Part shown: one piece after another, positions 20,669 to 39,267 of the stretch
Layout of the letters: the number at the start of each line of letters is the position of its first letter
Numbering within the stretch: the stretch's first letter is position 1
Assembly: GCA_002368605.1 (NCBI GenBank)
Contig: DFEB01000072.1
Coordinates: 31,687-74,209 of the forward strand
DNA length: 42,523 bases
DNA from: Treponema sp. UBA3813
GTDB taxonomy: Bacteria; Spirochaetota; Spirochaetia; Treponematales; Treponemataceae
Direction of reading: 5' to 3'
Program-made: the position numbers and the translations under genes
The notes under the pieces: generated by a model
The model's input: the letters and a program-made list of their open reading frames with translations, nothing else
Database searches by the model: none
Told to the model about the DNA's origin: nothing

Positions 20669-23600
20669 TTATTTTACAACCATGACCTTTCGGGTTTCGT
20701 CAATGCCGTTTCCTGTAACTCGCACAAAGTATAAGCCTCGCGCTACGGAATTTCCGGCGTTATTTTTTCCGTCCCAATAGTAGAAATGAGTTCCCTCAGA
20801 GACTGTGCCCTTTTCAAGCCGCCTGATTATGTTGCCGTCCAAAGTCATAACGAAAATGTTCAGATTTCCTGCGCTTTTCATATCGACTTCAATGGCTGTT
20901 CTCTCGCCAGTCTCTGGATTAATTACATTATTAAGAATTGAAACGCCACCCCTCTGTTTTGACACTCCAGAGATTGAGAAAGACCACAAATCCACGAAAG
21001 AGAAATCACCGGCCTTTATTCGCTCCTGCGGCATCCAAAATGCATAGAGAGGAATTTTGCTTGTAAGTGAATCGCCGTCGTGGTTAATATCAATATCTCC
21101 TCCGCCTGCTGTTTTTATCTTAAAGAAGAACTGATAATCAGCGCCGTCTGACAAATGAACAAGTTCGTTCTTTAACTCAAAAGTTTGAAGCAATTCCGTC
21201 GGATCATCAAAAGTAAGAGCCATCTCTGTTTTCGTGCCGCTGTCATTGTAACTTGAGGCAAGAGAACTCATCGGCTTGTCAGTCCAAAGCCGCCAGCCAA
21301 GGGCCGTAAGCAAATTAAACCGGTCACTTACCCATGAAGACTTGAGAGAAGATTTTTTATCGTAGACAAGAGAAAGCGAATAATTCGGAGCGACTAAGCT
21401 TTCACTGGAATTGTCATAATCCGCGAATTGGATTTGGAAAGTAATATCCCTGTCATAGAGCAATTTCTGGTAGTTTCCGCCTTCCGCGCTAAAGTCATGG
21501 ACAGAATATCCTTCCGCAGCCGTCGTCCCATAAACATTTTGCTCCTGCCAGTTATCATCGTTCGGTGCAGTGTAAGCATAAATCACATCAACGGCATTCA
21601 CCGCAAAATCAGAAATTGCATGACAGGTGTGAATCGGAATGCCATTTCCGAAAAAGTCCTGGATATAAGCGACAAGATTTCCGTCTCCTGCGCTTGAGTC
21701 ACCATATTGTTTTATGCGAATCCAAATTTTTTCAACATCAGAAAGAGTGATTTTCCGGCTCAAAGTGAACAAAAGGGCGGTATAAGCATTGCTGTGAGAG
21801 GCAAGAGCCACATCCGTAACAGAAATTTCGTCAGTTCCAGAAGGCATACTTGTGGTATCGATATTGTCACCTGCTGAATAAACGAATTCTATGTTATTTA
21901 AAATGTGGTCATGTAGTTCAGAAGAAAGAGAGCCTTTTAAATACTCACCTTTATATCCGAGCGGCTTCGTAAATATCGCGAACAATTTGTCACTTCCAAC
22001 AGGGGAAACAACCATAGAGAAAGAAGGAGGCGTGATATCGAGGCCACCGAGCCTTTTGGTCAATCCGTCATCTGTTTGTGAAAGGCGGTTTCCTGCCAAA
22101 TCAGTAATGAAGGCATTTTCTTTTTTAAATGTGACCACAAATGTAGTACGCAAAGGAAGAGTCAGGTCAGACGGATTCAAGGCAAATGCGAGGTAAAGGC
22201 CGTCATTTTCGGTGTTGGTTTCACTTTCTGAATCTTGGCGGAAAAGAGCGCTTTTTGCGTTCTGCGAAACATCTTTAGCGGCGAATTCCCTTGCTTCCGA
22301 TGTCTGTAAATCAAGTTTGTATGTATAAGAGAAATTTGCATAGGCACCGTTGAGACTTGAACGGCGTATTCCGCCCTTTGTTTTTGGGCTGTCTGCAAAA
22401 GGTCGGCTTCCGCCCTCGCTTTCAGGCGTTGCATAGGCGACAGTTGAGCCAGTCATCCAGCCTTTTTGAGTAATCCATTTGTAGGTGTCAGTATCGCGGT
22501 ATTCCGGATGATTGTCGAACAAGTGCATTTCAATCCGCTCAAGATAGGCGCTTGTGTTTGATTCTACGGAACCGGCTATCTCATATTGACGGGTTGGGCT
22601 GTCACCGGTATGCCAGCACAAGTCAGGATCACTTCCATCGGTGTTGGTTACATAAGTCGCAAAGCCTGGTGGAGTGACATCCCATGAACCGTAAAGCTCA
22701 TTTGTAAGCCCCGCCGTTTGTTTTACCGCAAGAGAAGCGTTCTTTGTGTGGTTGAGGACATTTCCGTTTTTGTCGGTGATGTTTGCGTTTTCAGAAATGG
22801 CAAAAGTTCCAATCGGACATTTTGCGGAATCTATGTAGCCAATCCAGTTGTAGAAAGACGCGCCGCTCATCGTGACAGTGCCGTCAATCTTTCCTGCAAT
22901 TGAGAGCCTTACCCTGCAAGGATAAATTTCTTCGCTTCCCCCTAATGTAAGCGAGAATTTTCTGTAAAGGGCATGAGGTCTGGCAATATCGGTAGTGCCT
23001 GTAAAATTAGGGGCAGATCCGCTTTTGTAGCCTGCCGAAAGGCTTCCGTCTGAGAATGAGCCGAAGCCTGTAACGGTAAAGCCGCTGCTACCGTTGGCAA
23101 CGATTGCACCGCCATGAGAAGCCGCCGTGTCAAAAGCAGACTGAGCCTCTATGTTCAGAAGGGCATTTTCGCTTGTCTCGTCAAAAGCCAAATCTCCAAG
23201 AGAAACTGGCTCGGAATATCTGAATTCAATGAAATTGTGGGCATCATAAGGCTTTTGGACATCAGAACTATAATTGGTGGCAGAAGCCGAGCCTGCCGGA
23301 GTAACATGACCTTCCTGACCAGTGTAAACCGCAATCAAAATCGGGGGAACTCTGTCCTCAAGGTCAGTGTATGCCTTGTTGTCGGAAGAATCATAAGAAT
23401 ATTCTGCGCTCAGCGTGTAGCCGTCTTTTAAGTAGAAAAATCCCTCAATCAATGAAAGATTTATTTTTGCATCTTTTTTTACTCCAGAAAGATTCGTGCT
23501 GTCATCGCTTCCTTTTGTAGTTCCGTCTGCGTCTGTATTCCAAGTTTCTGAAGATTTTATATAGAAGATTTTTTCTGAAGAAGTAAAATTTAGTGCCGTC

Positions 23601-26600
23601 GTGCAGGCTTTGTTAGAATAGAGGCCTGAAAAAGACTTTTGCCCGTCATTATAAGAAAGGTGAGTTTTATTTGATATGGAACCATTCTGAGCAATTTTTG
23701 ACAATTCCGTGTTCAGTTCCACAGCTATAATATTGTCCGAAACAGAATAAGCCGACAGAATTTCAACAGAATCAAAAATCCAGTTTGTGTTTCCGCCACC
23801 ATCTGTCACATTCTGATGAGTAAATTTCGTTGTGGGAGAAGAAGCCGCCACATAAACAGAAGAAGTTCCGTCAGAGCATGAGGCAGAGCAATTTGCAGCC
23901 GTCATGTTGAAAGCGACTGAATAGGGCTTTCCCCACATTGTTGCCGAAGCGGCGTCCGTTGCGTTGAGAGCAGGCAGGGCCGTTTTTGCCGGGAGAATGA
24001 GCGCAAGGTCAGAAATGTCCGCACCGTTCACATAAAAATTCTCTCCCACAGTAAGGCTTCCGGAAATTGAGCCAAAAGTAGCCGAGGGCGAAGCAGGCAT
24101 GACAAAATTATCCGTGCCAGCGGGATAGGCAAAGCGAGTGTTTTCTGAAACATGCCAGTCAGAATCTTTTACGCTGTAGGCAGAACCAAATGCCGCAAAA
24201 TCTTTGGCCGCAGTAACATTTGCCGCCAAAGAAAGGCTTCCGCCTGTAAAGTAGAAATTCTCACAGGCAAGGTCTGTGGCGACAGTCCGGCTTCCGCCGC
24301 CAATCTGAAGATTGTAAAATCCGACATCAGGGAGATTCCCGCTTCCCCCAGAGTAAAGGACGAGCCCGCTAGTCATTGAAAGCGAAGAATCTGAAAAAGA
24401 AAGCTCTCCGCTTCCGTTAATTTCGATAATTCCTTCGTTAAATCCACCGTCCGTGGAAGCAACTTCAATGTTCTGAGAGCCAAGCTGCAATCTGGTGACA
24501 GTGCCGTCGTTTTTATTCGTAATTTTCAGAATCTGATTTTCAGGGATTACCGCTCCGCTGCTTCCGCTCACTGCACTGACTTTTCCGCCACCGTAATATT
24601 CAAACACGATGTCACTTCCAAAAGAAGCAGAAGCAGAAATAGAACTTGTATTTGCAGACAAGTCCGTGCCACTTCCCTGGAATTTTAAAGTTACGCCATC
24701 CCCCGCGTTAAAATCCGTAGTTGAAGAATCAGAATCATCTGCGCTTACAGAATATGCCGCGAAATCCAAAGTTTTATCGTCGTTTATTGTGAGGGATTTT
24801 ACGGAAATGTCTTTCTCAAGAATTAAATCATTTCCGGTCGTTGCGATTATAATTCTTTTTGTGCTTGCGCTTGTGTCTGAGCCGTCATTCGGAACAGAGG
24901 CCGGGTATGAAGTCGTAGTATCGTAGAACCAGTTTCCAGAATCTGCCCAAGAAGAAGATGAGACTCCAAGCCAGTAATATTTTCGCTCGAACCAGTTTGC
25001 CGTAGAAAATTTCGCAGCAGAAGGCTCTTCATTGTCATTTGCCTCGACATCGATTTTTGTAATGATGTCGGAACTTGAAGTTGAATAGGAAATAATTGCA
25101 TGAGTCACATCAACCGCTGAAAGAGGCGTGTCCAAAATCCACCATGTCGATGTATCAGAAACAAGAGGAGAAGATGCCGCCGTCGTGAGACTTATCTTGT
25201 TTGCGCTTGCGCCATTGATTTTGAATGAAGAAGTTACGGTCTGCGTTTTTCCAGCCTCGAATTTCAGGCTTGCTCCTGCCACATTACATTCAAAATTCGA
25301 AAAAGTGTTATTTCCTGAGATTGTGGCATTTCCCGTAAAAATGACAGTACCCGCACTCGCCGTAAATCCATTGCTTATAGCGTTATTTGTAAAGTCTCCG
25401 GCTACAGTAAAAGAAGAAGCCGTTTCGACAGAAGAAGAAGAGCCAATCTCAATATTGAAGAATTTCGTAGATGTGGAATTTGAAGAATCATCCGTTGTGA
25501 TTGTCTGTGGCAGGCTTCCGCTGAAAGTAATTGTTCCTGCAGTCGCTTCAAAAGAACCGCTTCCGCTTACAGTAAAATCCCCGGTCAGCAAAATGTCAGC
25601 CGTTGAGCCGGCACTTCCCGTAATAAGGAGATTTGCATAGTCAGTACCTGAAGAAGAAAAATCCGTGACGGTTTGTGCCGTGCCGCTGTAGAGGACGCTA
25701 CCATTATTATCCACATCGTTAATCGGATTTGTGCCGTCCGTGATTCTTCCCGTACTCTGATACTCGATTGTGCCGGAATTTTTTAGCGTAACGAGGGAAG
25801 AATCGGTGTTTGTGACAGGAAGTCCGCCCGTGTTGTTAATTGTGACAAGTGCATTAGCCTCAATTTCCAGCGTTCCGATACTGATATCATTTCCCTGAAC
25901 ATTAGGATAGTAAGTGCAGCCTGCAGGAATCAGAACTCTGGCTCCTACCGTGTTTCCAGAAGCGGAATTAACGCCTGGAACAATTCCCAAATCCCAGTTT
26001 TCGCCGTAAGACCAGGTTCTTTGCCCCAGAGAAGAGCCTCCGACCCAGGTATAGACAAAATCATAGTCAAGATTCCAGCCGTTTTTATAAAGAGCCAGAT
26101 AATCGCTTTGCCCGCTTCCCGTGGCTGGCAGGCCGTCCGTTACATCAAAGGCACCAGCCACAAGAGTTCCGTCAACTTTCTCGATTTTGACACTGTTTCC
26201 AATGAAAAGATTTGTCAAAGCTGCCGTTCCGCCAGTTACGACGAATGTTCCGCTTCCGTCAATTGAAAATTGGCTTGCAGGAGAAGCTGTCCCAACTGTA
26301 AGAGCAGAGCAATTTATTTTTCCGTCATTTGTGATAGAATTGCTTCCAAAAGCCAGCGAATCAGCCGTGACAGAGCCATTTGCGCCAACAACAAAAGTCG
26401 TGTATCCAAAAGAAAGATTGACTGAAGAAGCGTCAAGGCTTCCTTTTACATTGATTAAATTGGAACGATCTGAATTTGAAAAATCAGTCTGGCTTCCTGA
26501 AATCGTAATCGTTCTGTTTTCATCGACAATAAGACCAGAGCCAGAATACATTACGAAGGCAGAACCTGCGTCCAGATTACAGTCAAGTTCAAGAGTTCCA

Positions 26601-28633
26601 ACAACTCCGTTCGTATTGCTGAGTCTGGAAAGGGAAACCCCCTGAGAACAGGTGATTTTTTTGCCTCCGGTGATTTTTGCCGAAAAATCAGCAGAAAGAA
26701 AATAAGCCGCGTCGGCATACATGGCAAGAGAATTAACTGTTATGTCGCCTGCGCTCACATCAATCGTGACATTTCCGCCAAACCGAAGAATATTGAAAGC
26801 CTGACCAGCAAAAGTCGTGAGTTTTTTTGCCTCTGAAGTAATGAAGTAAACAGTTCCAGTGCCTGCGCTAAATCCAGAACAAGAAGAAAAATCCGTATTT
26901 CCGTAGAAGAAAGAGTTTCCCGAAGATACTGTAAACGAGCCTGAACCTGAATAATCCCCCTCAAATTTGGCAGAGCTATCTCTCAAAGAAATTGCTCCAT
27001 TGTTTTCCGTGTTTCCACCCACAATCAATGTCGGTTTTCCGTCTGTTCCTGTGGGGTCATCTGAAGTGAATTGAGACGAAGAATCCAAAGTAAATGTCGA
27101 AGCCACTCTCAATCCAGCGGACGCATAAGAATATTCCATGTCATTTATGGCAGAAAATTTCTTTACCTGAATTTTTGAATTGGAATTCGTCTTCGTTACA
27201 AGAGAATTTACAGCGACAGAATCAAAGAGGAAATAACCGTCAATGATAATATCCGCAGTCTCCGCATTTGCACCGTAGCCTTTTATCGTTCCACTGCCAG
27301 CAGATGAGCCTGAAGAATTCACCAGCGTCAACTTATAACCAGAGCCATCCAGTGTGAGGTCATTTGCGCTTTTTCCAGCATCAAAAACCGCAGTGTCACC
27401 GTCATCGTAGCCAGGATAACAGCCGTCATAAGCACCACCGTCATATTCCGCAACAGAAACATAGACATTTCTGTCTTTATCTTTGAAGGCCCAGTTTGCG
27501 CTTTTATTCCAAGCGCCTGAATCCGTTGTATCAGCCCCCGTCCAATAGTAAGTATGGAAATCCGCAACGACAACTTCTGTCTGATATGTGTAAGTGAACT
27601 CTCCAAGCTTAAAGGGGCGGGTATCAGGAGTGTAGATTGTAAGAGTTATTGTGTCACCGTCGGAAATATCTGTTCCATTGTAAAACTGAATGTATTGGGT
27701 CGTATCTGAAGAATCAATTCTGAAATATCCTGTGTTATTCGAGGAGTCAAGGGAAATAAACTCATCATCATAATCATTATAAAAATAAAAGGAGCCTGTA
27801 AGATCTTCTTCCAAAGACTCGGTTGTACCAGCTGTTCCTGTAAAAGAAGTAACCTCATATTTGTAATAAACAGGCCAGCCACTAGTTCCATATCTTGTAA
27901 GCTCAAGTTTTTTCGTAGATTCATTAAAGTCGAAAGTGTAATAACTCGGAGAGCCTTGATATTGTTTGACAGAAATTCCTGAGCCAAAACTGAATGCCGA
28001 GCTATCATAGAAAGTTCCGTTTTCATTTTCCATATCCTCAATCATTTCACCAGAAAATGGAAGATAAAATGTTCCGTTGCCAGTAATGCCGACTTGCCTT
28101 GCTGTATTATACTTAAATGTTAGGTATTTGCTTTTTACCGTGACCACAGAAGAGTCAGAAAGTTTGAAATCATAAGTTCGTTCATCAGAAGCAGAAGAGT
28201 CTCCGTCTGTCTCAAAAATATCACAAACAAGATTTAACCCGATGATTTCACACTTGCCTAAAGTTTCAGTATGAGGAAATTTTAAATGTACCGTATCACA
28301 TGTTAAGGTAATGCTTGAAGCAGTGTAATCTTTTTGCATACGAATCTGCTTATCATCCACACTGTTTAAATACAGCGTCCTAATCGTAATATCTTCGGTT
28401 AAATTAATAGTGATTACGCTTTCGCCTGTAAAATAAACATCCGCGCTTGAATCGTTGATTGGAGCAGTTCCTGTTGACCAATTGGCACCAGTAGACCACT
28501 TCCCGTCTCCCCCTCCCCCTGTCCAAGTATAATCCGTTGCCCATACAGTTGCGGCAGAAAAAAAAGCCGTCACAAGGAAAAAGCCCCGTAAGATTTGAGA
28601 AATTCTGCTGTTAGCGAAAGAAAAATTCTGCAC
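20669..28633 (-). CDS. Giant secreted surface protein with Trp-rich modules and a FlgD-like C-terminal Ig domain
   Basis: 2654 residues from GTG 28633 (7 nt after TATACT; an in-frame TTG precedes it). A signal peptide runs to about residue 34 (VWA-TD). Four modules share a pattern of YTW.G...W....NW....P, near residues 35-100, 362-430, 860-930 and 1219-1290; one is TWTGGGGDGKWSTGANW. Between them are long Ser/Thr/Gly-rich beta-strand repeats resembling passenger domains. The second half has segments like bacterial Ig-like (SbsA/Big_5) domains, with FIEFRYSEPV and DITPPSFSM. The last 85 residues form a FlgD-type Ig domain (YYWDGKNNAGNSVARGLYFVRV) ending RKVMVVK. No autotransporter barrel follows. 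Probably an adhesin or cell-surface filament; the role is inferred. Confidence 0.85.
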   Translation of the reverse strand: MQNFSFANSRISQILRGFFLVTAFFSAATVWATDYTWTGGGGDGKWSTGANWSTGTAPINDSSADVYFTGESVITINLTEDITIRTLYLNSVDDKQIRMQKDYTASSITLTCDTVHLKFPHTETLGKCEIIGLNLVCDIFETDGDSSASDERTYDFKLSDSSVVTVKSKYLTFKYNTARQVGITGNGTFYLPFSGEMIEDMENENGTFYDSSAFSFGSGISVKQYQGSPSYYTFDFNESTKKLELTRYGTSGWPVYYKYEVTSFTGTAGTTESLEEDLTGSFYFYNDYDDEFISLDSSNNTGYFRIDSSDTTQYIQFYNGTDISDGDTITLTIYTPDTRPFKLGEFTYTYQTEVVVADFHTYYWTGADTTDSGAWNKSANWAFKDKDRNVYVSVAEYDGGAYDGCYPGYDDGDTAVFDAGKSANDLTLDGSGYKLTLVNSSGSSAGSGTIKGYGANAETADIIIDGYFLFDSVAVNSLVTKTNSNSKIQVKKFSAINDMEYSYASAGLRVASTFTLDSSSQFTSDDPTGTDGKPTLIVGGNTENNGAISLRDSSAKFEGDYSGSGSFTVSSGNSFFYGNTDFSSCSGFSAGTGTVYFITSEAKKLTTFAGQAFNILRFGGNVTIDVSAGDITVNSLAMYADAAYFLSADFSAKITGGKKITCSQGVSLSRLSNTNGVVGTLELDCNLDAGSAFVMYSGSGLIVDENRTITISGSQTDFSNSDRSNLINVKGSLDASSVNLSFGYTTFVVGANGSVTADSLAFGSNSITNDGKINCSALTVGTASPASQFSIDGSGTFVVTGGTAALTNLFIGNSVKIEKVDGTLVAGAFDVTDGLPATGSGQSDYLALYKNGWNLDYDFVYTWVGGSSLGQRTWSYGENWDLGIVPGVNSASGNTVGARVLIPAGCTYYPNVQGNDISIGTLEIEANALVTINNTGGLPVTNTDSSLVTLKNSGTIEYQSTGRITDGTNPINDVDNNGSVLYSGTAQTVTDFSSSGTDYANLLITGSAGSTADILLTGDFTVSGSGSFEATAGTITFSGSLPQTITTDDSSNSTSTKFFNIEIGSSSSVETASSFTVAGDFTNNAISNGFTASAGTVIFTGNATISGNNTFSNFECNVAGASLKFEAGKTQTVTSSFKINGASANKISLTTAASSPLVSDTSTWWILDTPLSAVDVTHAIISYSTSSSDIITKIDVEANDNEEPSAAKFSTANWFERKYYWLGVSSSSWADSGNWFYDTTTSYPASVPNDGSDTSASTKRIIIATTGNDLILEKDISVKSLTINDDKTLDFAAYSVSADDSDSSTTDFNAGDGVTLKFQGSGTDLSANTSSISASASFGSDIVFEYYGGGKVSAVSGSSGAVIPENQILKITNKNDGTVTRLQLGSQNIEVASTDGGFNEGIIEINGSGELSFSDSSLSMTSGLVLYSGGSGNLPDVGFYNLQIGGGSRTVATDLACENFYFTGGSLSLAANVTAAKDFAAFGSAYSVKDSDWHVSENTRFAYPAGTDNFVMPASPSATFGSISGSLTVGENFYVNGADISDLALILPAKTALPALNATDAASATMWGKPYSVAFNMTAANCSASCSDGTSSVYVAASSPTTKFTHQNVTDGGGNTNWIFDSVEILSAYSVSDNIIAVELNTELSKIAQNGSISNKTHLSYNDGQKSFSGLYSNKACTTALNFTSSEKIFYIKSSETWNTDADGTTKGSDDSTNLSGVKKDAKINLSLIEGFFYLKDGYTLSAEYSYDSSDNKAYTDLEDRVPPILIAVYTGQEGHVTPAGSASATNYSSDVQKPYDAHNFIEFRYSEPVSLGDLAFDETSENALLNIEAQSAFDTAASHGGAIVANGSSGFTVTGFGSFSDGSLSAGYKSGSAPNFTGTTDIARPHALYRKFSLTLGGSEEIYPCRVRLSIAGKIDGTVTMSGASFYNWIGYIDSAKCPIGTFAISENANITDKNGNVLNHTKNASLAVKQTAGLTNELYGSWDVTPPGFATYVTNTDGSDPDLCWHTGDSPTRQYEIAGSVESNTSAYLERIEMHLFDNHPEYRDTDTYKWITQKGWMTGSTVAYATPESEGGSRPFADSPKTKGGIRRSSLNGAYANFSYTYKLDLQTSEAREFAAKDVSQNAKSALFRQDSESETNTENDGLYLAFALNPSDLTLPLRTTFVVTFKKENAFITDLAGNRLSQTDDGLTKRLGGLDITPPSFSMVVSPVGSDKLFAIFTKPLGYKGEYLKGSLSSELHDHILNNIEFVYSAGDNIDTTSMPSGTDEISVTDVALASHSNAYTALLFTLSRKITLSDVEKIWIRIKQYGDSSAGDGNLVAYIQDFFGNGIPIHTCHAISDFAVNAVDVIYAYTAPNDDNWQEQNVYGTTAAEGYSVHDFSAEGGNYQKLLYDRDITFQIQFADYDNSSESLVAPNYSLSLVYDKKSSLKSSWVSDRFNLLTALGWRLWTDKPMSSLASSYNDSGTKTEMALTFDDPTELLQTFELKNELVHLSDGADYQFFFKIKTAGGGDIDINHDGDSLTSKIPLYAFWMPQERIKAGDFSFVDLWSFSISGVSKQRGGVSILNNVINPETGERTAIEVDMKSAGNLNIFVMTLDGNIIRRLEKGTVSEGTHFYYWDGKNNAGNSVARGLYFVRVTGNGIDETRKVMVVK

Positions 28634-28640
28634 CAATCTT

Positions 28641-28649
28641 AGTATAACA
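28641..28649 (-). promoter_or_regulatory. Extended -10 of the giant surface protein gene
   Basis: TGTTATACT on the minus strand ends 7 nt before the GTG; TTTATA at 17 bp is a fair -35. There is no Shine-Dalgarno. It suggests the giant gene can be transcribed apart from the five genes upstream. Confidence 0.55.
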
Positions 28650-28679
28650 CAAATTCGATGACTTATAAACTCTTGTGTC

Positions 28680-29588
28680 CTAAGGGATTGTAAAAATTGC
28701 GGTCAGGCAACTTGAGCCTTGCACAAAATAAAGGGTGTATGTCGTGCCCGAAGTCAAAGCCGTGTAATCAAAAGAATAGCTACTAGTGGCTGAAGTCGTT
28801 TTAAGTTCTCCGTTTATAATCCAGAATCCTGCTCCGCTGGCAGTAAAAGAAAGAATCTTTGTCGTAGTGTTTTCAGTATAGCTCAGTCCGTCATCAATTT
28901 CTGAGACACAACCGTTTGCTTCCCATTGCGCATATAAATTTACGATTGCGTTCTGGGTCGTCGCAAGATTTTCGACAGAGGCGCTGTTGGAATATGGATC
29001 TCCGCTTCCATCTGCCCTTGAGGTCCATTTTTCAAAAGTGTAGCCGTTTCTAGCAAAGAGATTTGAATCCAAAGTTTTCCCGCCGTCATCATATTTAAAA
29101 CCCGACTGGCTATAATAAGTGTCTCCAGAAGAAGTTTTTCCGCCATTACCGTTGAAGCGAACCGTGTAGTCAATCTTCTCCCAGTCGTAAACATAAAGAG
29201 TGGCAGCATCTGGATAGACTTGAACAGATTGAATGTCTCCGTCAGAATTTGTACTTATATAGAAAGGAATATCCGTCGCAAGGGATGTGCTCTCATAAGG
29301 ATTGCTCCAGTAACGCAAAGCCTTGATTCTATAGCCAGTTTTTACAAGAGAAGAAGAACAAAGTGAAATCAACTGACCACCCGTAAGATAATCTCCAACC
29401 CTTAATGAAAGAGTCACGCTGCGAGGGGAAACTTCGTCTTCAGGATTGTCCATATATACAGTATAAGATGTTGTTACATCGTTTGTGATTGACTCGCCAA
29501 TATCAGAGCATGAAACGATGAATGAAAGTGTTGCAGCTAGGGCAAAAATCTTGAGAAAAAAGGAAATCCGGAATTCATTTTTTTTCAT
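28680..29588 (-). CDS. InlB B-repeat lipoprotein (paralogue 1)
   Basis: 302-residue lipoprotein: signal with lipobox FIVSC (Cys27) followed by SDIGESI. An N-terminal domain (30-135) of unknown type has YWSNPYESTS and ends LYVYDWEKID. It leads into a Listeria-Bacteroides (InlB B/Flg_new) repeat at about 138-222: YTVRFNGNGGKTSSG, GYTFEKWTSRADGSGDPY, VNLYAQWE. A C-terminal beta domain (about 230-302) has FWIINGELKTTS. These repeats occur in surface adhesins. AGGGGAG precedes the ATG. The downstream paralogue-type gene order and shared layout show tandem duplication with the next entry. Confidence 0.85.
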   Translation of the reverse strand: MKKNEFRISFFLKIFALAATLSFIVSCSDIGESITNDVTTSYTVYMDNPEDEVSPRSVTLSLRVGDYLTGGQLISLCSSSLVKTGYRIKALRYWSNPYESTSLATDIPFYISTNSDGDIQSVQVYPDAATLYVYDWEKIDYTVRFNGNGGKTSSGDTYYSQSGFKYDDGGKTLDSNLFARNGYTFEKWTSRADGSGDPYSNSASVENLATTQNAIVNLYAQWEANGCVSEIDDGLSYTENTTTKILSFTASGAGFWIINGELKTTSATSSYSFDYTALTSGTTYTLYFVQGSSCLTAIFTIP

Positions 29589-29599
29589 TATCCGCTCCC

Positions 29600-30472
29600 C
29601 TAATTTATCGTAACCTTAAATGACGATGGAGCAGCCTTTCCGCTCACAAAAAGGAAGACGGTGTAGCTTCCCGCCGAATAAGAAGAGCAATTTATCGTAA
29701 AAGAAGAAGTCTCGCTTTTGTTTCCGTTGCAAATCCAGATATTTGAGGCATAACTTGAAGTAAAAGTGACTCCAGAAACTCCGCCACTTCCGTCATCAAT
29801 CAAGGCAGCGGTCACACCTCCAGGAAGAGAATCATAGCTGATTTTAGGAAGCCAGATGGCATAAGCCGTTACGGTCACATTCGCCCTTGAGGCCAACTTG
29901 CTGACAGATCCACTATAGTAGGAAATTCCGTTTATCTTCCAGCACTTAAAAACATAGCCAGATCGCGTAAAAGTGTTGCCGGGCAAAGTGAACACCTCAT
30001 CATATTCGGCAGTTATGGAAGCCGGTGCCGTTCCGCTTCCGCCATTCGCATCAAAAACGAGGGTGTAGCTTATCTTATCGCTTTCGTAAACATAAAAACT
30101 ATCAGCGCAAGGCTTTATCGTCATTAAGCTGAAAGTGTCGTCATCATTCAAAATCACATAAGACGGAGCCTCGGTGATGTTTTCTGTAAGATTCTTGTAA
30201 TATTTCAGACTTTTGATTTCATAACCAGGCTTAAGGCTCAAAGTCATGCAATCAGAAATCAGGCGCGAAGCTGGGACTTGAGAGTCAAGCTCATATTGAA
30301 CATATACAGAATTTTCCGAGCCAGAAGGTTCGTCTGAATAAACAATCAGGCCCTGAGAAATGTCATCGTGAAGTTCCTTGCCTATATTTGAATCGCTACA
30401 AGAAAGCAAGAAGTCTGCAAAAACAGAGAGGAGAAGGCATTTTGTTAAAAAAGAAATTCTTTTTACTTTCAT
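29600..30472 (-). CDS. InlB B-repeat lipoprotein (paralogue 2)
   Basis: 290-residue lipoprotein with the same layout as its neighbour: lipobox LLSC (Cys25) followed by SDSNIGKEL, a first domain containing SLKYYKNLTENIT and ending FYVYESDKIS. A repeat follows with YTLVFDANGGSG, SGYVFKCWKINGISYY and VTAYAIWLP, then a C-terminal beta domain with IWICNGNKSETSS. ATG 30472 has AGGGGAAGG upstream; frame extension to 30508 would overlap the previous gene without a signal. It lies 10 bp after the outer-membrane protein gene and 11 bp before paralogue 1. Surface exposed by inference. Confidence 0.85.
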   Translation of the reverse strand: MKVKRISFLTKCLLLSVFADFLLSCSDSNIGKELHDDISQGLIVYSDEPSGSENSVYVQYELDSQVPASRLISDCMTLSLKPGYEIKSLKYYKNLTENITEAPSYVILNDDDTFSLMTIKPCADSFYVYESDKISYTLVFDANGGSGTAPASITAEYDEVFTLPGNTFTRSGYVFKCWKINGISYYSGSVSKLASRANVTVTAYAIWLPKISYDSLPGGVTAALIDDGSGGVSGVTFTSSYASNIWICNGNKSETSSFTINCSSYSAGSYTVFLFVSGKAAPSSFKVTIN

Positions 30473-30482
30473 GCGCCTTCCC

Positions 30483-31859
30483 CTAAAACCTGAACCCAAG
30501 ACAAGCATAAGGCGTTATAAATCCAGTAGTCATGCCAGCCGCCATAATATGATTAAAATCAAAGCCCGTCTCAAACACAAGGAATTTCCATGGAGTAAAA
30601 AACAAAGAAGCACCTGCCGAGAATTCTGGATAAGTGTATTTATCGCTTATGTCACTTGCCCTTGATAAAGAATAATACTGATAAGACACATGCTTTTCGA
30701 TATTGACTATGCCAAGTCCGCCCTTAAGCGCCAGAAAAGTCTTCTTTGAGAGTTTTCTGTGCCAGACGATACTCAAGTCAAAAACAGAGTATTCAAGTTT
30801 AAGATTGTAAGCTGAGTCTTTTTTTGTCTCAAATTCGTTAGACAAAAGTCCAAGTTGCAAGCCGAATTTATTTTTTTCACTTTTTATAGGAAGATAGGCA
30901 ATTTTCCCGCCGAGAGAAAGTGCCGCAGACTCTCCGGTATAATCCTTTATGCTCCCGTCGTAGGGCGATATCGTAAGGCCCGCACCGACCTCAAAAATGA
31001 AATCCTTGTAAATATAGGGATGAGCCGCCTTCCATTCTTCCTTAGCCTTTTTTTTCCTGAGAGCAGCCAGCTCTTCCTCAAGATTCAAGCGCTCTTTTTC
31101 ATAATTCGCGCGCTCTTTCTCAAAGTTCGCTCTCTCTTCCTCAAAACTTTTTCTTTCTTCTTCGATTTTTGCCTCAGATTCTGCAAACGCTTCTTTTTTT
31201 GCATTCTCTGCCGCTTCATCTCGGATTTTCTTAACTTCTTCATCAGAAATCGTTTTGACATCCTCGCCTTTTATCTCGATGATATCAGAGAGTGCTGAGA
31301 GTCCGCTCCCATTCGTAACTTTTAGCCGCCATTTTCCCGGCGGAACATTTTTGAAATTGAGTTTACTCACGCTGTCAGTTTCTGAACCAGTGTCAAGCTG
31401 AGCCTTAGTTTTTGAATCCACCGACCCCTGAAGGGATTCGTTCACCAATTCATAAGTAGAATTTGCGTTGATATCGGCGATGTTCACATTGATTGAGATA
31501 GAATCAGAATTCTCTGCAAGAGTGATACTTTTTTCAACGCTAGTGATTTTAGGCTTACTGGCCTTGTAAACCTCAAAATTTGTCCAAGCAGAGACACTAG
31601 CCTCTTTTCCCAAAAAATCGTAGGCATAAACGCGGTAACGATATTTTCCTGGAAGCAGAGAAATTTCAGTTGAAGTCTTTTCGGTCGTTATGAACTGTGA
31701 CTTTCCGCTGGCCGTATTCTGAATCTCTACTTTGTACTCAAGGGCATTCGCATTCGACTTCCATTCGATTTTTTGAAAGAAAGTAGCATTCTGAGAAAAC
31801 ATCGGCAGGGCAGAAAAAAGAAAAAGCAAAATCAAGAGGATTCTTGTTTTATTTTCCAT
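30483..31859 (-). CDS. Outer-membrane protein: FnIII-like domain, coiled coil, C-terminal barrel
   Basis: 458 residues. Signal peptide 1-22 (MFSQ). An FnIII-like domain at 25-98 (FFQKIEWKSNANALEYKV, KYRYRVYAYDFLG) and a second beta domain at 100-200. A charged coiled coil (205-280) contains five exact-register heptads. The C-terminal 170 residues (from DFIFEVGAGLTISP to CLGFRF) show alternating strands and a terminal Phe, typical of a small outer-membrane barrel. The coiled coil could span the periplasm and reach the FecR protein. GGGGG precedes the ATG, which overlaps the FecR gene stop by 11 nt. No named family. Confidence 0.75.
   Translation of the reverse strand: MENKTRILLILLFLFSALPMFSQNATFFQKIEWKSNANALEYKVEIQNTASGKSQFITTEKTSTEISLLPGKYRYRVYAYDFLGKEASVSAWTNFEVYKASKPKITSVEKSITLAENSDSISINVNIADINANSTYELVNESLQGSVDSKTKAQLDTGSETDSVSKLNFKNVPPGKWRLKVTNGSGLSALSDIIEIKGEDVKTISDEEVKKIRDEAAENAKKEAFAESEAKIEEERKSFEEERANFEKERANYEKERLNLEEELAALRKKKAKEEWKAAHPYIYKDFIFEVGAGLTISPYDGSIKDYTGESAALSLGGKIAYLPIKSEKNKFGLQLGLLSNEFETKKDSAYNLKLEYSVFDLSIVWHRKLSKKTFLALKGGLGIVNIEKHVSYQYYSLSRASDISDKYTYPEFSAGASLFFTPWKFLVFETGFDFNHIMAAGMTTGFITPYACLGFRF
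31059..31163 (-). repeat. Five 21-bp tandem units encoding coiled-coil heptads
   Basis: Codons 233-267 of the outer-membrane protein read as EEERKSF, EEERANF, EKERANY, EKERLNL and EEELAAL. The DNA units share GAGCGCGCGAA-type cores. Such a tract can change in copy number and so change the length of the coil. Confidence 0.75.
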
Positions 31860-34629
31860 AAAGAACCCCCGGATTTACTGCCTCAACCTTCGTAGGAGAA
31901 GCAAAATCAATTTTGAAACTTGAAGTTGCCACAGGTCCTTTCTGCTCAAGATATCCGTCTTTTGCGTAAGAATATGGCGTAACACTCCATTCAAATGAGC
32001 CTACATCAAGAATCGACAAATCTTTTATCGTAACAGAAGAAGCTTTCGTACTTCGCTCTGAATAAACCGCTTTCCTGCTTCCGTTTGACTCAACTTTATA
32101 AAGAACAAATGAGTAACTAGTCGCTCCGCTCACTTCACTCCATGAGAACTCAATCGTTCGGTGAGATTTCAGGTAAGCAGCACCAATGACAAATCCCTTC
32201 GCAGGAGATAAAAGGAGTGCCTTTTCCAAGTCAGGGATTTTTGAAATCACGAAACGAGCTTCCTTTGAATCGAGAGGGATTCCCTCTTTTGTACTCGCCG
32301 CAACCTTCCAGACATAGCTTCCTTCAGAAAGTCTGTTCATTGATGCAGATGTTTTACTGCTGCTTGTATTGCTCACGACTTTAACAGAGCCATCATTCTG
32401 TACTTTTGAGAGAATAAGCTGATACGAGTCCGCACCTTCCCGGCTTCCAGTCCATGTGAAGAGAAGAGGAGAGCGCAAAGCGGTGAGTCCGTCGATTGTA
32501 GAGCCATCAGCAGGAGTTTGTGTGACGATGACTGATGGAGAGCGCACCGTAAATGTTCGGCTTGCAATAGTTCCTGCACGAGAGCCACCCTCACCTTCAG
32601 AAACGGCCTGAATTGAGAAAGTAAATTCGCCTTCATCAAGAACAAAATCCGTTGAAGTTGAGCGGATTTCGTCCTTACTTTTAATCAAAGTTCCTGCCTT
32701 TGAGTAAATTTTCGCAGAATAATAATCTGCCCCTGAAACCTCCGACCATGAAAGCGTGACGGGACTTGCGTTATAAGCCATAAGCTCCTGATTGGGGTAA
32801 GGCACAAGGATGTCAGGAGAAGGCAAATCCGAAAGAACAGTGAACATTCTGCCTTGAGTGAATGCAATAGCCGCCCCCTCTCCGACTCGTACGCCAACTC
32901 TCCACCAATAATTTCCTGAAGGAAGAGAAATATTATCGAGGAAGGCGGCAGAAGTCGTTAGCTCCCGCTCAATCGTTGAGAATGAGGGATTTTTTGAAAT
33001 CTGGAGGACTGCTACAGAATTCGCATTGTCATATTCATCAGCAAGTTTCCACATAAAAGCCGTGCTTGTGATTTTTGACGGTTCAGCGGAGAAATTCTCT
33101 GGAGGGTAAACCAATTTATTGTCCTGAGGAATGTAGCGGACAATCTTAAAAGAACGGATTTCCGACTCAGGGGTCTTATCATCCGCATCGCCTGATTTTC
33201 TCAGAACCTTCCAATAATAAGTTCCGTCACGCAACTCGCTGGGAGTAAAATCACGGCTAAATCGATTTTCCTTCGTGATTGCACTGAAGACAACTGTAAT
33301 AAACGAAGGATCACGAGCAAGAGTCAGTTCGTAAGATGAGTTTTTAACTTCACTCTTCCAGATGAAATTCGTAGTTATGTTTTCTTTATAAATAATCTGT
33401 GCGTTTTCGGCAGGAGCAGAAAGTTCCGGCGGTCTGATTATTTCATTTCGAATCACTTTGAAAGAATAAATTTCACTTCCGCCATCATATCCGATATTGT
33501 TCTGACCATAATATGGAGTTACCTGCCAATAGTAAGTTCCCGCCTCAAGATTGTCCAGTGTCATGAAATTTCCGCTCGCCTCTGAATCAGAAACAACTGA
33601 GCGCATGTCCGGAGTCGAAGAAACAAGCAACCTGTATCGCTCTGCATTTTCATTGCCAGTCCAACGGAAAGAAACGCGGGGAAGACTTGTACGGTAGCGG
33701 AATTCACTGGCCGTGGCAGGAGAAATTCCCTGAATCGCTTCGATTTTTTCCATCAAAATTCTTCCGTCAACGGATTTATCTTTTGTCGCCTCGGTATAAG
33801 CTCTCCAATAAACAAGGCCGTCTGAAACAGGAATTGTGGCCGTGTCCTTTGATTTGAGTTTTTTATGCGTGTCGATGACAGAAAAATCCCTTGTTCGGGA
33901 AGTCTGAAGTATGACATCTTCTCCGTCAGTCGTTTTCCATTCAAATTTCACATTCATCGTTGTGCCGCGGAGATTAAGTAGCTTCAATTCTTTCGGAGGA
34001 TACACCACCGTCACAGGATTCTTTTGAATTTCCTTGCCATTTTCGACATTGACGGAGTCCCCGTAGGCGAGCATAGCCGTTTCACCACTTTCCGTAGTAA
34101 TCTGCGCACTACCGCTTTTGACTTCGACATTATGCACGCCTGTTGCAGAATCAGATTTTGCCGCAAGAGAAGAGCCAGCCTCAACATTAACGACAGAGCC
34201 ATCATCAAGTTTAACCTCGATATTCGAGTCTCCCAGCCCTGAATCAATCTGAATATCACCGCCGTTTATTGCAATCTGAAATTCGCCCTTTTCATTAGAA
34301 CCGAGCTGAATCATAGTATTTTCACCAAGTTGAATTTTCGTTTCACCAAGAACGAGAGTTACTTCAGCCAAATCCGCGGTTCGTATCGTGTCTCCGTAAT
34401 AAAGCTTCGTTTCGTTCGTAACTCGTTCCCAGACGACGCGATCATCAAATTTTCGCTGAACGACATTTTGTTTGAGAGAAATAAAACCAATTTCGGCTTT
34501 GTCGCTTCGGACTGTAAATGTGTTCAAATCCTGCCAGAAAAGATAGGCAAAGACTGCCGCTGCAGAAAGGCAGAAAAGAACGACAAAGGCATCACGGAAC
34601 AGCGACTTTAATTTTGTTCTCTTCCGCAT
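31849..34629 (-). CDS. FecR domain protein with tandem FnIII-like repeats
   Basis: 926 residues anchored by one N-terminal helix (14-32), the rest probably periplasmic. A FecR domain (about 55-190) shows YYGDTIRTADLAEVTLVL and FQIAINGGDIQID. Then come about seven repeats of roughly 95 residues, each closing on an aromatic-W-V strand: YYWQVTPYY, YYWKVLRK, YWWRVGVR, YVWKVAAS, FEWSVTPY. In its classical role FecR relays a signal between outer membrane and a sigma factor; here no sigma gene is near, and the cyclase gene overlaps upstream by 38 nt. ATG 34629 is preceded by AGG; a TTG lies directly before it. Probably a scaffold between the cyclase and surface proteins (inference). Confidence 0.85.
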   Translation of the reverse strand: MRKRTKLKSLFRDAFVVLFCLSAAAVFAYLFWQDLNTFTVRSDKAEIGFISLKQNVVQRKFDDRVVWERVTNETKLYYGDTIRTADLAEVTLVLGETKIQLGENTMIQLGSNEKGEFQIAINGGDIQIDSGLGDSNIEVKLDDGSVVNVEAGSSLAAKSDSATGVHNVEVKSGSAQITTESGETAMLAYGDSVNVENGKEIQKNPVTVVYPPKELKLLNLRGTTMNVKFEWKTTDGEDVILQTSRTRDFSVIDTHKKLKSKDTATIPVSDGLVYWRAYTEATKDKSVDGRILMEKIEAIQGISPATASEFRYRTSLPRVSFRWTGNENAERYRLLVSSTPDMRSVVSDSEASGNFMTLDNLEAGTYYWQVTPYYGQNNIGYDGGSEIYSFKVIRNEIIRPPELSAPAENAQIIYKENITTNFIWKSEVKNSSYELTLARDPSFITVVFSAITKENRFSRDFTPSELRDGTYYWKVLRKSGDADDKTPESEIRSFKIVRYIPQDNKLVYPPENFSAEPSKITSTAFMWKLADEYDNANSVAVLQISKNPSFSTIERELTTSAAFLDNISLPSGNYWWRVGVRVGEGAAIAFTQGRMFTVLSDLPSPDILVPYPNQELMAYNASPVTLSWSEVSGADYYSAKIYSKAGTLIKSKDEIRSTSTDFVLDEGEFTFSIQAVSEGEGGSRAGTIASRTFTVRSPSVIVTQTPADGSTIDGLTALRSPLLFTWTGSREGADSYQLILSKVQNDGSVKVVSNTSSSKTSASMNRLSEGSYVWKVAASTKEGIPLDSKEARFVISKIPDLEKALLLSPAKGFVIGAAYLKSHRTIEFSWSEVSGATSYSFVLYKVESNGSRKAVYSERSTKASSVTIKDLSILDVGSFEWSVTPYSYAKDGYLEQKGPVATSSFKIDFASPTKVEAVNPGVLYGK

Positions 34630-37045
34630 CAAGATTTACCTGGCCAAAATCAGGCTCCGCTATTCCAAGTATTTTCCGAAGTTCTTTGAGTGTTTTCGGA
34701 CCACGAGGACCACACGCAATCTCACAGTCAGAATCAAGCACAAACTTTGAATCATCACTTGCGAAGAATTGCTCTATATCAAAATTCGGCATGTTGACCA
34801 CGCCGTAGAAATGCTGCTTTCCTTTCCCTTTTACATCGAATTCAACAGGAATCTGCTCGACGACAATCTCATTGAGAATATTATGAGGCTTGATGATAAA
34901 CTTATTTTCTTTGCAACGGATATAGTCGTATTTGAGAATATCATAGGTATCTTGCGTGATAAGAATATCCGTTCCGCAAGGCTTGTTACTGGCTTCGGCA
35001 CGGCTTGCAAAGTTTACAGCATCACCAATAGAGGTAAATTCCATTTTATCGAAGCTTCCCATAAATCCAACAGTCGCCCTTCCTGAATTCAATCCTGCTC
35101 CAATCTGAATATGCGGCTTATATTTTGCAAGTGGATCATTCTTAAATTTTTCGGTAAAGGCCTCGGCGTCTTTGTTGTATTTCATAAGAGAGTAGCGCAT
35201 AGCAATACAGCAGGTAATCGCACTCAAGGCATCGCTTTTTACATAGGCAGAGTGAGCCTCTTCCTTCAGAATTCTAGTAACAGAATTTTTATTCATGCTT
35301 TCCCAGTCAAAGCTGTCATTTCTGAGAACTCCCCAAGCGGCCATAATCGCGTCACCTTCAAACTTATCCACAATGCCACCAGTCTTATTGATACAAGCTA
35401 CCATTCGACTCATGTAATCATTCAAGAATCCGATGATTTCTGCCGCGCTCCGCTCTCCGAAGCGTTTTTTGAATCCGTCCGAAATTGCCGTAAATCCGCG
35501 GATATCGCTGAAGAAAATCGTAATGTCCTTTAAGTGAGGCTCAAAGTCAATTTGCTTTGTGATTACCGCTTTTGTAACGCCCTTGTTGGTCAGGCGAGAG
35601 ACCATGTTAAGGATTTCCCTCTCGTTTTTAGTGCTACGCTCCAGAACACCAATTTCATCCTTTCGCTTAAGTTTAAGTTCGTCAAAAAGTTCCGTATTGA
35701 AGTTGCCTTTATTCACCTCGTTGACGACTGCCGTTAAATGACGAAGAGGATTACTCAAAGATTTTGCAAAGAAATAAATTATCATTATGGCAATCGCGAT
35801 AACGACACACATGATATAAAGATTTCTTATCGTGATTCGACGGATGCCTTCAAGAACGACAGATGTTTTTACCACGGTGATGACGCCACATGTTCCGACT
35901 TCCAGTTTTCTGAATGCGCCTATGTACTCAGCCCCCGTCTCGTCTGTAAACGGAATTTGTCCGTTACTGGAATTGCTCTCAAGCATTTCTTTTACAATCG
36001 GAGAGTCGCTCAAATCCGCGCCACCGTTCATTTTTTCCAAATCGCTGTGAACAAGGACAATTCCATCATTGTTCACGAAGAAAGACTGATTAACATTTCC
36101 TGCCGCATAGCTTTCTCCGATTCCTGAACTAGAATAAAGAAAGCCAACAAAGCGTTTTCCTGAAGTGCTCGCCACTGGACAAAAGAGTGCCATCACAGGA
36201 ATGTTAAAGAAAGGACTTGCATTCAGTATCTCAAAACTACCGCCTTTCGCTTTTTCTCCCGACTCATTTTCCTGCTCCATGTAGGCAAGAATAGTCTCAC
36301 GCTCAAGCTCATGGGCAGCAAGGAAATAATCGCTTGTAAAAAGAGCCTTTGAAACCGACTCTTCGGAAGAATCTTCAGAACTGAAATAGTAAATTGCGAC
36401 AATCTCTTTATGTCTGTCAAAGAAAAGTGTTTCGATTGTTCGACGAGCAGATTCGTTATCTCCAGAATTCGCCATCAAATCAAGGAACATAGTAACAGAA
36501 GAAATTGCCGTATTTATTCGGTTTTCGGTATCAGATGCAGTCCTGCTGTTAATGGCAAGATTGTTTTCTTCGGCATTTGAACGGGTATCCTCTGTCATTG
36601 AGCGTGAAACTGCATAAGTTACGGTTCCGACCGCAAGAACAAGAAGAAAAGATATGATGACAACAAGTTTCACACCAATCGGACGACGGATTTTATCAGC
36701 ACGCTCTTCTTCCAGCCGCTCACGCTCTTCATATTTTTTGAGCAATTTAATGGCAGCTTTTTCGATTTTTAAAGATTTTTTGTCGTCGGCAAGGAATTTT
36801 GCGATTTCATCAGAACGACGAGGAATATATTCTTCTGGTTCTTCAAATATAAAATCTTGGACGGAAGAAGAAAAGTAAACAGTCTCATCTTTTGTTTCTT
36901 TTTTTAAAGGAATCGGTGAGACCACATTATTATTTGGCTTTACGCGAACAAATGAGCCTTGTACAGGTTCAAGTTTTTGAGACGGTTTGTTTTTTTGGGG
37001 GAGTATGAATTCTCCATACTCCAGCGATTTCGGCTCTGCGTTCAA
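34592..37045 (-). CDS. Class III adenylate cyclase with Cache-like sensor and HAMP
   Basis: 817-residue inner-membrane sensor. A charged cytoplasmic N-terminus (1-122) precedes TM1 (about 125-147), a periplasmic Cache-like domain (150-400), TM2 (407-428), HAMP and a class III cyclase domain (505-750). Metal Asp residues lie in FFSDIRGFT (514) and FEGDAIMA (565), the purine-binding Lys561 in VDKFEGD, Thr671 in FTSIGD, and transition-state Asn678 and Arg682 in DAVNFASR. Lys plus Thr is the class IIIb pattern that favours ATP, so cAMP is the expected product. A 60-residue tail with CGPRGPKTLKELRKIL follows. The start is TTG 37045, 8 nt after AGGA. First gene of the surface-protein locus. Confidence 0.92.
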   Translation of the reverse strand: MNAEPKSLEYGEFILPQKNKPSQKLEPVQGSFVRVKPNNNVVSPIPLKKETKDETVYFSSSVQDFIFEEPEEYIPRRSDEIAKFLADDKKSLKIEKAAIKLLKKYEERERLEEERADKIRRPIGVKLVVIISFLLVLAVGTVTYAVSRSMTEDTRSNAEENNLAINSRTASDTENRINTAISSVTMFLDLMANSGDNESARRTIETLFFDRHKEIVAIYYFSSEDSSEESVSKALFTSDYFLAAHELERETILAYMEQENESGEKAKGGSFEILNASPFFNIPVMALFCPVASTSGKRFVGFLYSSSGIGESYAAGNVNQSFFVNNDGIVLVHSDLEKMNGGADLSDSPIVKEMLESNSSNGQIPFTDETGAEYIGAFRKLEVGTCGVITVVKTSVVLEGIRRITIRNLYIMCVVIAIAIMIIYFFAKSLSNPLRHLTAVVNEVNKGNFNTELFDELKLKRKDEIGVLERSTKNEREILNMVSRLTNKGVTKAVITKQIDFEPHLKDITIFFSDIRGFTAISDGFKKRFGERSAAEIIGFLNDYMSRMVACINKTGGIVDKFEGDAIMAAWGVLRNDSFDWESMNKNSVTRILKEEAHSAYVKSDALSAITCCIAMRYSLMKYNKDAEAFTEKFKNDPLAKYKPHIQIGAGLNSGRATVGFMGSFDKMEFTSIGDAVNFASRAEASNKPCGTDILITQDTYDILKYDYIRCKENKFIIKPHNILNEIVVEQIPVEFDVKGKGKQHFYGVVNMPNFDIEQFFASDDSKFVLDSDCEIACGPRGPKTLKELRKILGIAEPDFGQVNLDAEENKIKVAVP

Positions 37046-37062: not shown

Positions 37063-37071
37063 ATTATAACA
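37063..37071 (-). promoter_or_regulatory. Extended -10 promoter of the cyclase locus
   Basis: TGTTATAAT on the minus strand (perfect -10 with TGn), with TCGATA 17 bp upstream. Initiation would fall near 37056, beside the AGGA Shine-Dalgarno, leaving a leader of only about 11 nt. Confidence 0.65.
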
Positions 37072-37092
37072 GTTTTTCCTTAAATTATCGAC

Positions 37093-37120
37093 AAAAAAAG
37101 CCGGTATCACTACCGACTTT
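37093..37120 (-). terminator. Intrinsic terminator downstream of fabZ
   Basis: On the minus strand a 10-bp stem AAAGTCGGTA / TACCGGCTTT (one G-T pair) with loop GTGA is followed by seven T. It insulates fabZ transcripts from the cyclase promoter 22 bp further on. Confidence 0.85.
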
Positions 37121-37140
37121 TAAAAATTATATGAAATTTT

Positions 37141-37174
37141 ATCAGCCTGTGCACAGAGTATTTTTCAGACTGAT
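37141..37174. other. Stem-loop in the fabZ 3' region
   Basis: ATCAGCCTG and CAGACTGAT pair over 9 bp (one G-T pair on one strand) around a 16-nt loop. There is no T-run, so it is an RNA structure rather than a terminator. It lies between the terminator and the palindromic repeat. Confidence 0.5.
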
Positions 37175-39151: not shown

Positions 39152-39180
39152 ATAAATCTCCTATAATTAACTTCAATTTG

Positions 39181-39208
39181 ATTATGACAAAATATCATTT
39201 TTTGTCAT
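39181..39208 (-). promoter_or_regulatory. fabF promoter overlapped by a 25-bp palindrome
   Basis: On the minus strand ATGACA (39203-39208), 16 bp, then CATAAT (39181-39186) form a good promoter. The palindrome ATGACAAAA-7 nt-TTTTGTCAT (39184-39208) has one arm on the -35 and the other on the -10. A dimeric repressor bound there would block RNA polymerase. The regulator is unknown; it does not look like the FapR or FabT sites I remember. Confidence 0.65.
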
Positions 39209-39258
39209 TTTGTACAAGTGGGAAAAGACTCATCAATATAGAAAAATTCGCTTCCCTG

Positions 39259-39267
39259 TGCTATAAT
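39259..39267 (+). promoter_or_regulatory. Extended -10 of the AAA-ATPase/nuclease gene
   Basis: TGCTATAAT on the plus strand, a perfect -10 with TGn, ends 6 nt before ATG 39274. TAGAAA at 17 bp is a fair -35. It predicts a leaderless transcript. Confidence 0.65.

Follow-up and report, generated by a model that had tools for sequence, protein, structure and literature searches.

In FecI-FecR-FecA systems, a periplasmic FecR domain and an outer-membrane barrel convey information from the cell surface to the cytoplasm. The locus described here is situated on a stretch of 42,523 bp from Treponema sp. UBA3813 (hereafter the window; contig C43 of the 2.6 Mb genome G000) and is similar to these systems in possessing a periplasmic FecR domain and a predicted outer-membrane barrel, whereas it lacks an anti-sigma domain of the usual size, a sigma factor gene next door in the window and any match to a TonB-dependent receptor. 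As suspected in the initial annotation of this stretch, the position held by FecI in Fec systems is occupied by a nucleotide cyclase. The conserved core of the locus consists of this cyclase, a FecR protein with FnIII-like units (the strut) and a barrel protein (together, the trio), and not of the six genes originally put together.

Two further systems come close to the trio, as far as the accessible portions of the respective papers describe them. In Sinorhizobium meliloti, cyclic AMP (cAMP) signalling by a host protein needs the outer-membrane receptor NsrA together with CyaK or CyaD1/D2 (PMC7529298), with uL2 of the host as candidate for the signal (PMC7529298, PMC13001267). This NsrA-CyaK/CyaD1/CyaD2-Clr pathway resembles the trio in its outer-membrane beta-barrel (predicted for the trio), its inner-membrane cyclases and its CRP-family cAMP reader (PMC7529298, PMC13001267). 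Its cyclases, however, carry CHASE2, whereas the trio cyclase is dCache-like; the barrel of NsrA (residues 600-1200; PMC7529298) is much larger than that of the window, the likeness being one of logic; and in the accessible text a FecR strut linking the cyclases to the receptor is not described. In Campylobacterota, a cyclase gene is likewise clustered with a FecR-domain gene, within a CHASE2-cyclase / phosphodiesterase / FecR-domain / TPR cluster for which one pathway is proposed (PMC9239204). Different from the trio, the sensor is CHASE2, the partners are phosphodiesterase and TPR proteins, the FecR-domain protein itself is termed an outer-membrane protein, and in the accessible part of that paper neither a separate barrel nor an FnIII strut is mentioned (PMC9239204). 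Since the NsrA-cyclase pathway and the CHASE2-cyclase/FecR clusters are in print, the earlier statement that no such system had been described has to be softened, and the trio is a phylum-wide variant of ideas already published and not wholly new. No publication combining FecR, adenylate cyclase and Treponema was found by a search with subscription journals mostly outside its reach. Further papers were drawn on (PMC5498481, PMC2408589, PMC4368718, PMC10118025, PMC4243447, PMC3789758, PMC8186283, PMC8407342).

The comparison is based on three sets of loci, which overlap (e.g., L161/G113, L165/G096, L194/G018) and are not random samples. The family set contains 80 loci picked from P0002 matches, mainly the best or longest ones, and comprises 81 rows with the window added. 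Among 40 further regions fetched, 34 usable ones stem from other spirochaete families, five are paralogous pairs, and one (L126) is a placeholder of 100 bases that was excluded; L102 and L134, in which no FecR open reading frame (ORF) was recognised, were counted apart in the neighbour tally. The named set consists of the best 80 of 99 named loci, among which Treponema metagenome-assembled genomes from ruminant foreguts and Treponema ruminis RU1 are the closest named relatives of the FecR gene. The loci L001-L030, L111-L120 and L241-L254 are excluded from the tallies. ORFs were taken from the longest possible start, and the tabulated cyclase/fecR overlaps are therefore upper values. Relatives of P0002 are present in 90 of the 118 family genomes, and the N-terminal FecR profile matches 203 of 392 genomes and 101 of 166 genera of the phylum.

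In the family set, 80 of the 81 rows contain a recognised FecR ORF; in 78 of these 80 loci, the cyclase gene is its immediate upstream neighbour on the same strand, being fused to it in one (L047) and absent from one (L053). The same neighbourhood is found in other families at 30 of the 33 loci with a FecR ORF (exceptions L123, L124 and L143) and in 77 of 80 named loci (exceptions L187, L195 and L215, the last starting near a contig end). As PF00211 has 10 matches in the entire 2.6 Mb of G000, a cyclase upstream of FecR in 78 of 80 loci is far beyond chance. The order thus recurs throughout the phylum and is not confined to this genome. Directly downstream of FecR, a recognisable barrel-type gene follows in 74/80 family, 18/33 other-family and 65/80 named loci; one other-family and 10 named loci end where the barrel gene is to be expected, and in one family and one named locus, both from the same organism, the barrel gene is fused to FecR. 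In L086/L194 (Brucepastera parasyntrophica), FecR and barrel proteins read as a single ORF that has a signal-like segment in its interior, whereas two separate ORFs make up the cyclase.

The three proteins also exhibit correlated divergence. The 81 loci yielded 71 complete triads once those with incomplete, fused or split genes had been dropped, and among these triads the distance matrices correlate with 0.83 for cyclase and FecR, 0.80 for cyclase and barrel, and 0.93 for FecR and barrel. To remove the effect of species history, partners were shuffled within each of the 13 genomes with several triads: the true within-genome correlations amounted to 0.78, 0.77 and 0.91 (same order of pairs) as compared to shuffle means of 0.26, 0.23 and 0.21. 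The highest single shuffles yielded 0.72, 0.66 and 0.72, and the true value was reached in none of 500 shuffles for any pair, which argues that duplicated trios keep their own partners. Linkage and co-evolution together bear out the earlier view that cyclase, FecR protein and barrel belong together.

We consider it reasonably likely that the trio constitutes a signalling relay across the envelope, leading from the outer-membrane barrel via the FecR strut to the cyclase and to cAMP. The predicted 8-strand barrel would show its loops at the cell surface, and the periplasmic FnIII/Ig domains of the barrel protein would contact the FecR strut. It is the FecR protein, placed in the inner membrane next to the dCache/HAMP cyclase and presumably produced with it by overlapping translation, that would convey the barrel's state to this enzyme; the cyclase would in turn set the cAMP level, which CRP-type cNMP (cyclic nucleotide)-binding proteins may read. 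PF00027 cNMP-binding domains were found in 14 of 14 genomes searched. The physical contacts, the direction of signalling and a ligand as given here are deduced from the arrangement of the locus and from sequence comparison.

Concerning the cyclase, a cytoplasmic N-terminal tail is followed by a first transmembrane (TM) helix (residues 123-141), a periplasmic dCache-like sensor (158-382), a second TM helix (409-427), HAMP (425-471), the catalytic domain (505-714) and a conserved C-terminal tail; as for the other trio proteins, locations were assigned by hydropathy only. Guanylate_cyc scores 54 bits in the window cyclase (cut-off 21.9) and is present in 22/22 members, and HAMP is above cut-off in the window and found in 21/22 members; no CHASE2 match is listed by Pfam for the window cyclase or the 22 members. 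The columns of D514, K561, D565, T671, N678 and R682 are invariant in all 22 aligned cyclases, the Treponema pallidum type included. We take D514 and D565 to be the metal-binding aspartates, K561 and T671 the purine-binding residues, and N678 and R682 the residues of the transition state. The best-scoring solved chain is 3r5g (CyaB), and other adenylate cyclases, including 2w01 and 1wc1, come next. On our assumption that a Lys/Thr pair in a class III cyclase favours cAMP, this pair and the similarity to CyaB and adenylate cyclase chains point to cAMP rather than cGMP as the probable product. The class IV (CYTH) cyclase profile has no match in G000, G020, G015 and G043, nor has the class I profile in G000 and G020. 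Two subtypes of the cyclase are found in the alignment, a compact form and one with a longer catalytic domain that bears an insertion after the second metal Asp (window, L072, L074, L077, L083, L043, L048, L059 and L099). A large expansion is found in G145 (family f25), in which 4.6 Mb contain 51 class III cyclase domain matches, 7 FecR and 11 LIC11435-type matches.

The FecR/FnIII strut begins with a short cytoplasmic tail and a single TM helix near the N-terminus, followed by the FecR domain and around seven FnIII-like units, whose F/L-x-W motifs are situated at residues 230, 322, 423, 526, 627, 725 and 829; the Pfam matches of Ig/FnIII type in the window protein are all below cut-off. Within the family loci, the fecR ORF, taken from its longest start, begins between 17 and 107 nt (mostly 35 or 38 nt) inside the end of the cyclase gene, and the relative reading frame of the overlap is the same one in all 78 loci. 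AAGG- or GGAG-like ribosome sites were seen by eye inside the conserved-tail codons of the cyclase in many of 50 rows. Such a frame-locked overlap fits with coupled translation of cyclase and FecR, as far as can be judged from the sequences.

In the barrel protein, a signal segment precedes FnIII/Ig-like domains, a coiled coil (around residues 198-278, by eye) and the C-terminal predicted barrel (around residues 285-458). An outer-membrane barrel fold of eight strands is suggested by the alignment pattern among 71 relatives, 60 of which end with Phe. The coiled coil is an insertion of some clades, with a mean of 31.6 and a maximum of 417 residues in that place among the 71 relatives. The N-terminal domain matches the LIC11435 family (NF047756) with 43.4 bits, the equivalog cut-off being 380; relatives of this family occur in 81 of 198 phylum genomes, none of the 198 reaching that cut-off.

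The trio is also found in a genome consisting of a single contig of 1,139,633 bases (G020, locus L031). Both of the fibronectin-binding peptides published for TP0483 are present in its barrel-type ORF (374 aa from an inner Met), the second one at residues 316-333, exactly as reviewed; on these grounds, G020 is taken to be T. pallidum itself or very closely related to it. The orthologous trio of T. pallidum is TP0485-TP0484-TP0483, TP0484 and TP0485 being the numbers of the other two genes. It differs from that of the window by a shorter strut and by having neither coiled coil nor lipoprotein tail, the next gene lying on the other strand. In an alignment of 71 relatives examined by eye, both TP0483 peptides fall on the predicted outer loops 2 and 3 plus the adjoining strands. 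PF00211 finds one cyclase in G020, that of the trio, as compared to between 4 and 51 matches in the other 13 genomes searched, and four of its ORFs carry a total of five cNMP-binding domains according to PF00027. In the accessible literature, TP0483 is described as a fibronectin/laminin-binding protein and not as part of a cyclase system; no publication linking it with a cyclase was found, subscription journals being mostly outside the search. TP0484 appears in one T. pallidum paper as an entry in a tabulation of sequence changes, TP0485 was not found in the texts accessible, and the titles that mention T. pallidum together with adenylate cyclase do not point to the trio.

Several observations weigh against the relay as proposed above. 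No barrel gene is recognised in 5/80 family, 14/33 other-family and 4/80 named loci, nor in any of five short paralogous cyclase-FecR pairs (L156-L160; FecR of 422-717 aa). Cyclase and FecR can therefore exist without the barrel. Pfam OMP_b-brl matches just one of 22 barrel-protein members, and a sequence search of the PDB with the barrel protein gave weak matches only, mostly of titin/FnIII type and none of them a barrel. Concerning TP0483, one study is reported in a review to have seen no evidence of it in the outer membrane, and the accessible text of a paper modelling T. pallidum outer-membrane proteins does not mention it. The dCache_1 match of the window cyclase covers profile positions 3-231 of 240 but reaches 20.6 bits against a cut-off of 45, and just 8 of 22 aligned members, the window included, attain an E-value of 0.01 or better. 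Outside the family, the overlap has the same frame in 18 of 30 loci and differs in 12. Cyclase and FecR of L047 (5201-9991; single-contig genome G066) form one ORF of 1596 aa, which speaks in favour of the relay, but this is a single genome, and the join lies within the A-rich overlap, such that it is possibly a natural fusion or possibly a sequencing slip. Clr, the cAMP regulator of S. meliloti, has among its targets a FecR-domain protein that, according to the accessible text, is not required for signal perception.

Among the explanations competing with the relay, one holds that the state of the envelope itself is sensed: barrel and FnIII strut would bridge the membranes mechanically, and the cyclase would read tension, spacing or assembly defects. 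The approximately seven tandem FnIII-like units could span far across the periplasm, and strut length differs between species, ranging from 671 to 1914 aa across complete, unfused family ORFs. Yet it is the T. pallidum type that possesses the shortest strut (671 aa) while still keeping the trio, and the fibronectin binding published (in the text accessible) for TP0483 peptides at predicted outer loops speaks for a ligand from outside, such that we regard a purely mechanical sensor as unlikely. The cyclase might also act on its own, its dCache domain sensing a small molecule, with FecR and barrel forming an adhesion or assembly device that shares operon and regulation. This would agree with dCache domains usually binding small ligands directly, with the gene cluster often running on into adhesin-like lipoproteins, and with TP0483 being published, as far as accessible, as an adhesin. 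Operon sharing alone, however, does not readily explain the overlap that is frame-locked in all 78 family loci, the partner-specific co-evolution of duplicated trios within genomes, or the cyclase-FecR pairs retained without a recognised barrel, and we consider a cyclase working alone quite improbable.

Classical surface signalling of the FecR type, with an unlinked sigma factor encoded elsewhere, appears very remote. A FecR domain is found in 23 of 23 members, the FecR protein weakly matches the solved chain 6ovk_R (E 0.015) and the putative anti-sigma factors 4m0h/4m0n (E 0.14 and 0.2), and G000 contains seven Sigma70_r4_2 matches, all on other contigs. On the other hand, only 4-38 residues precede the TM helix of FecR in the 79 proteins scored of 80 tried (the cut L102 was unscored and the fused L047 left out), which leaves no anti-sigma domain of classical size. 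No sigma factor occurs among the 19 Pfam-scanned ORFs of the window, as already noted for the neighbourhood of FecR in the initial annotation, and no plug or signalling-domain Pfam match of the TonB type is found in the window barrel protein or listed among 22 members. A classical Fec system was therefore rejected.

If the relay is extended to T. pallidum, TP0483 could act less as an adhesin than as surface receptor for the sole detected cyclase, contact between its outer loops and fibronectin of the host acting through the FecR strut on cAMP, with contact to the host matrix as the main cAMP input and the phylum using FecR signalling with a cyclase output in place of FecI; this proposal is tentative and, taken as a whole, rather doubtful. 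Were it true, the only PF00211 cyclase detected in the T. pallidum-type genome would have a surface input, and a well-known adhesin would gain a possible receptor role. With the trio, what appeared as a six-gene curiosity of one rumen-type treponeme becomes a phylum-wide module that unites three separately annotated proteins, and FecR-domain proteins may work for a second messenger as well as for sigma factors.

The six ORFs of the initial annotation are all present at the places indicated on the minus strand (20669-37045), and TM and signal segments, by hydropathy, are consistent with the proteins stepping outward as had been proposed. Its spacings of -38, -11, +10, +11 and 46 nt are reproduced if second or inner start codons are chosen: cyclase and FecR overlap by 38 nt if FecR starts with the ATG at 34629 (by 41 nt with the TTG at 34632), FecR and barrel overlap by 11 nt, lipoprotein 1 follows the barrel gene after 10 nt from the inner ATG at 30472, and the next gaps are 11 nt to lipoprotein 2 and 43 or 46 nt to the giant gene. 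The six genes do not hold together as one unit, however, since genes 4-6 differ between species. The six-gene operon as a conserved unit was rejected, the upstream fatty-acid genes and the downstream FtsJ-type gene not being kept around the trio; an exception is L072 (the G096 locus, to which L165 of the named set corresponds), where the giant gene, a 126-aa ORF and FtsJ are retained.

A same-strand gene follows within 200 nt in 49 of the 74 family loci with a barrel gene; a signal-like segment is found at the start of 36 of these 49 followers, and a length of 300 aa or more is reached by 40 of them, of 700 aa or more by 25. From 65 proteins of at least 300 aa encoded first or second after the barrel gene, 36 were chosen for a Pfam scan, the two of the window among them: 13 contain Listeria-Bacteroides repeats, and a few contain BspA-type LRR, pectate-lyase-like adhesive, Chlam_PMP, beta-helix or sulfatase-modifying domains. 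Judged by such features, the downstream genes are a changing set of predicted surface-type proteins, many with a lipobox.

The giant is a predicted exported protein of 2655 aa. An ORF of this type comes after the trio both here and in four of the seven best-matching named loci (L164-L167 of L161-L167), which end inside the giant, and in no other compared locus that extends far enough. Relatives of the giant exist in at least 71 of 118 genus genomes, mainly sharing the C-terminal 1250 residues, with open frames of up to 5366 aa. Among the 16 genomes with relatives of both the giant and P0002 (G000, G081, G086, G095, G096, G097, G098, G099, G102, G103, G104, G107, G109, G111, G112 and G116), the two are adjacent in G000 and G096 and non-adjacent in the other 14 according to printed coordinates, in which contig ends may hide further cases; G052, G090, G106 and G114 contain a giant relative and no P0002 match. 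Lipoproteins and giant might hence be regarded as clade-specific surface-type cargo of the trio gene cluster, possibly its ligands or outputs.

Table 1. Positions within the window of the trio, the genes that follow it and their main features
Feature	Position	Strand	Basis or remark
Class III nucleotide cyclase	34592..37045	-	Pfam, alignment, hydropathy, solved-chain comparison
dCache-like periplasmic sensor domain of cyclase	35900..36574	-	Pfam dCache_1, below cut-off
Cyclase catalytic domain	34904..35533	-	Guanylate_cyc
Cyclase/FecR overlap, 38 nt (FecR gene start within last cyclase codons)	34592..34629	-	
FecR/FnIII strut	31849..34629	-	Pfam, hydropathy, motif spacing
FecR domain core, residues 136-185	34078..34227	-	Pfam FecR 26.8 bits, cut-off 24
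About seven FnIII-like units of about 100 residues each	31852..33999	-	Regular F/L-x-W motifs
Predicted outer-membrane protein	30483..31859	-	NCBIfam match, hydropathy, alignment pattern
Predicted 8-strand beta-barrel	30486..31007	-	Alternating hydrophobicity and insertion pattern in 71 relatives, strands by eye
Lipoprotein 1, variable addition	29600..30472	-	One Listeria-Bacteroides repeat; lipobox LLSC read by eye
Lipoprotein 2, variable addition	28680..29588	-	One Listeria-Bacteroides repeat; lipobox IVSC read by eye
Giant exported protein, C-terminal FlgD_ig	20669..28636	-	Pfam; follows trio in some close relatives
Two promoter-like sites upstream of cyclase gene	37063..37153	-	-10 hexamers end at 37126 and 37063

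The promoter-like sites of Table 1 stem from a scan for the consensus only, in which 22 sites were found in the region as compared to 13.5 expected. A further promoter-like site with an extended -10 is situated just before the giant gene (28641-28669, minus strand), and given this site of its own, separate transcription of the giant gene is possible as well. Neither the Rfam nor the tRNA scan of the window gave a match. The cyclase gene is preceded on its 5' side by fabZ, a ketoacyl synthase gene and other fatty-acid genes, and the giant gene is followed on its 3' side by the 126-aa ORF and then the FtsJ-type methyltransferase gene. Inside the fatty-acid gene cluster, on the opposite strand (39085-40848, plus), a gene for an AAA-ATPase-like protein with PDDEXK_9 is found.

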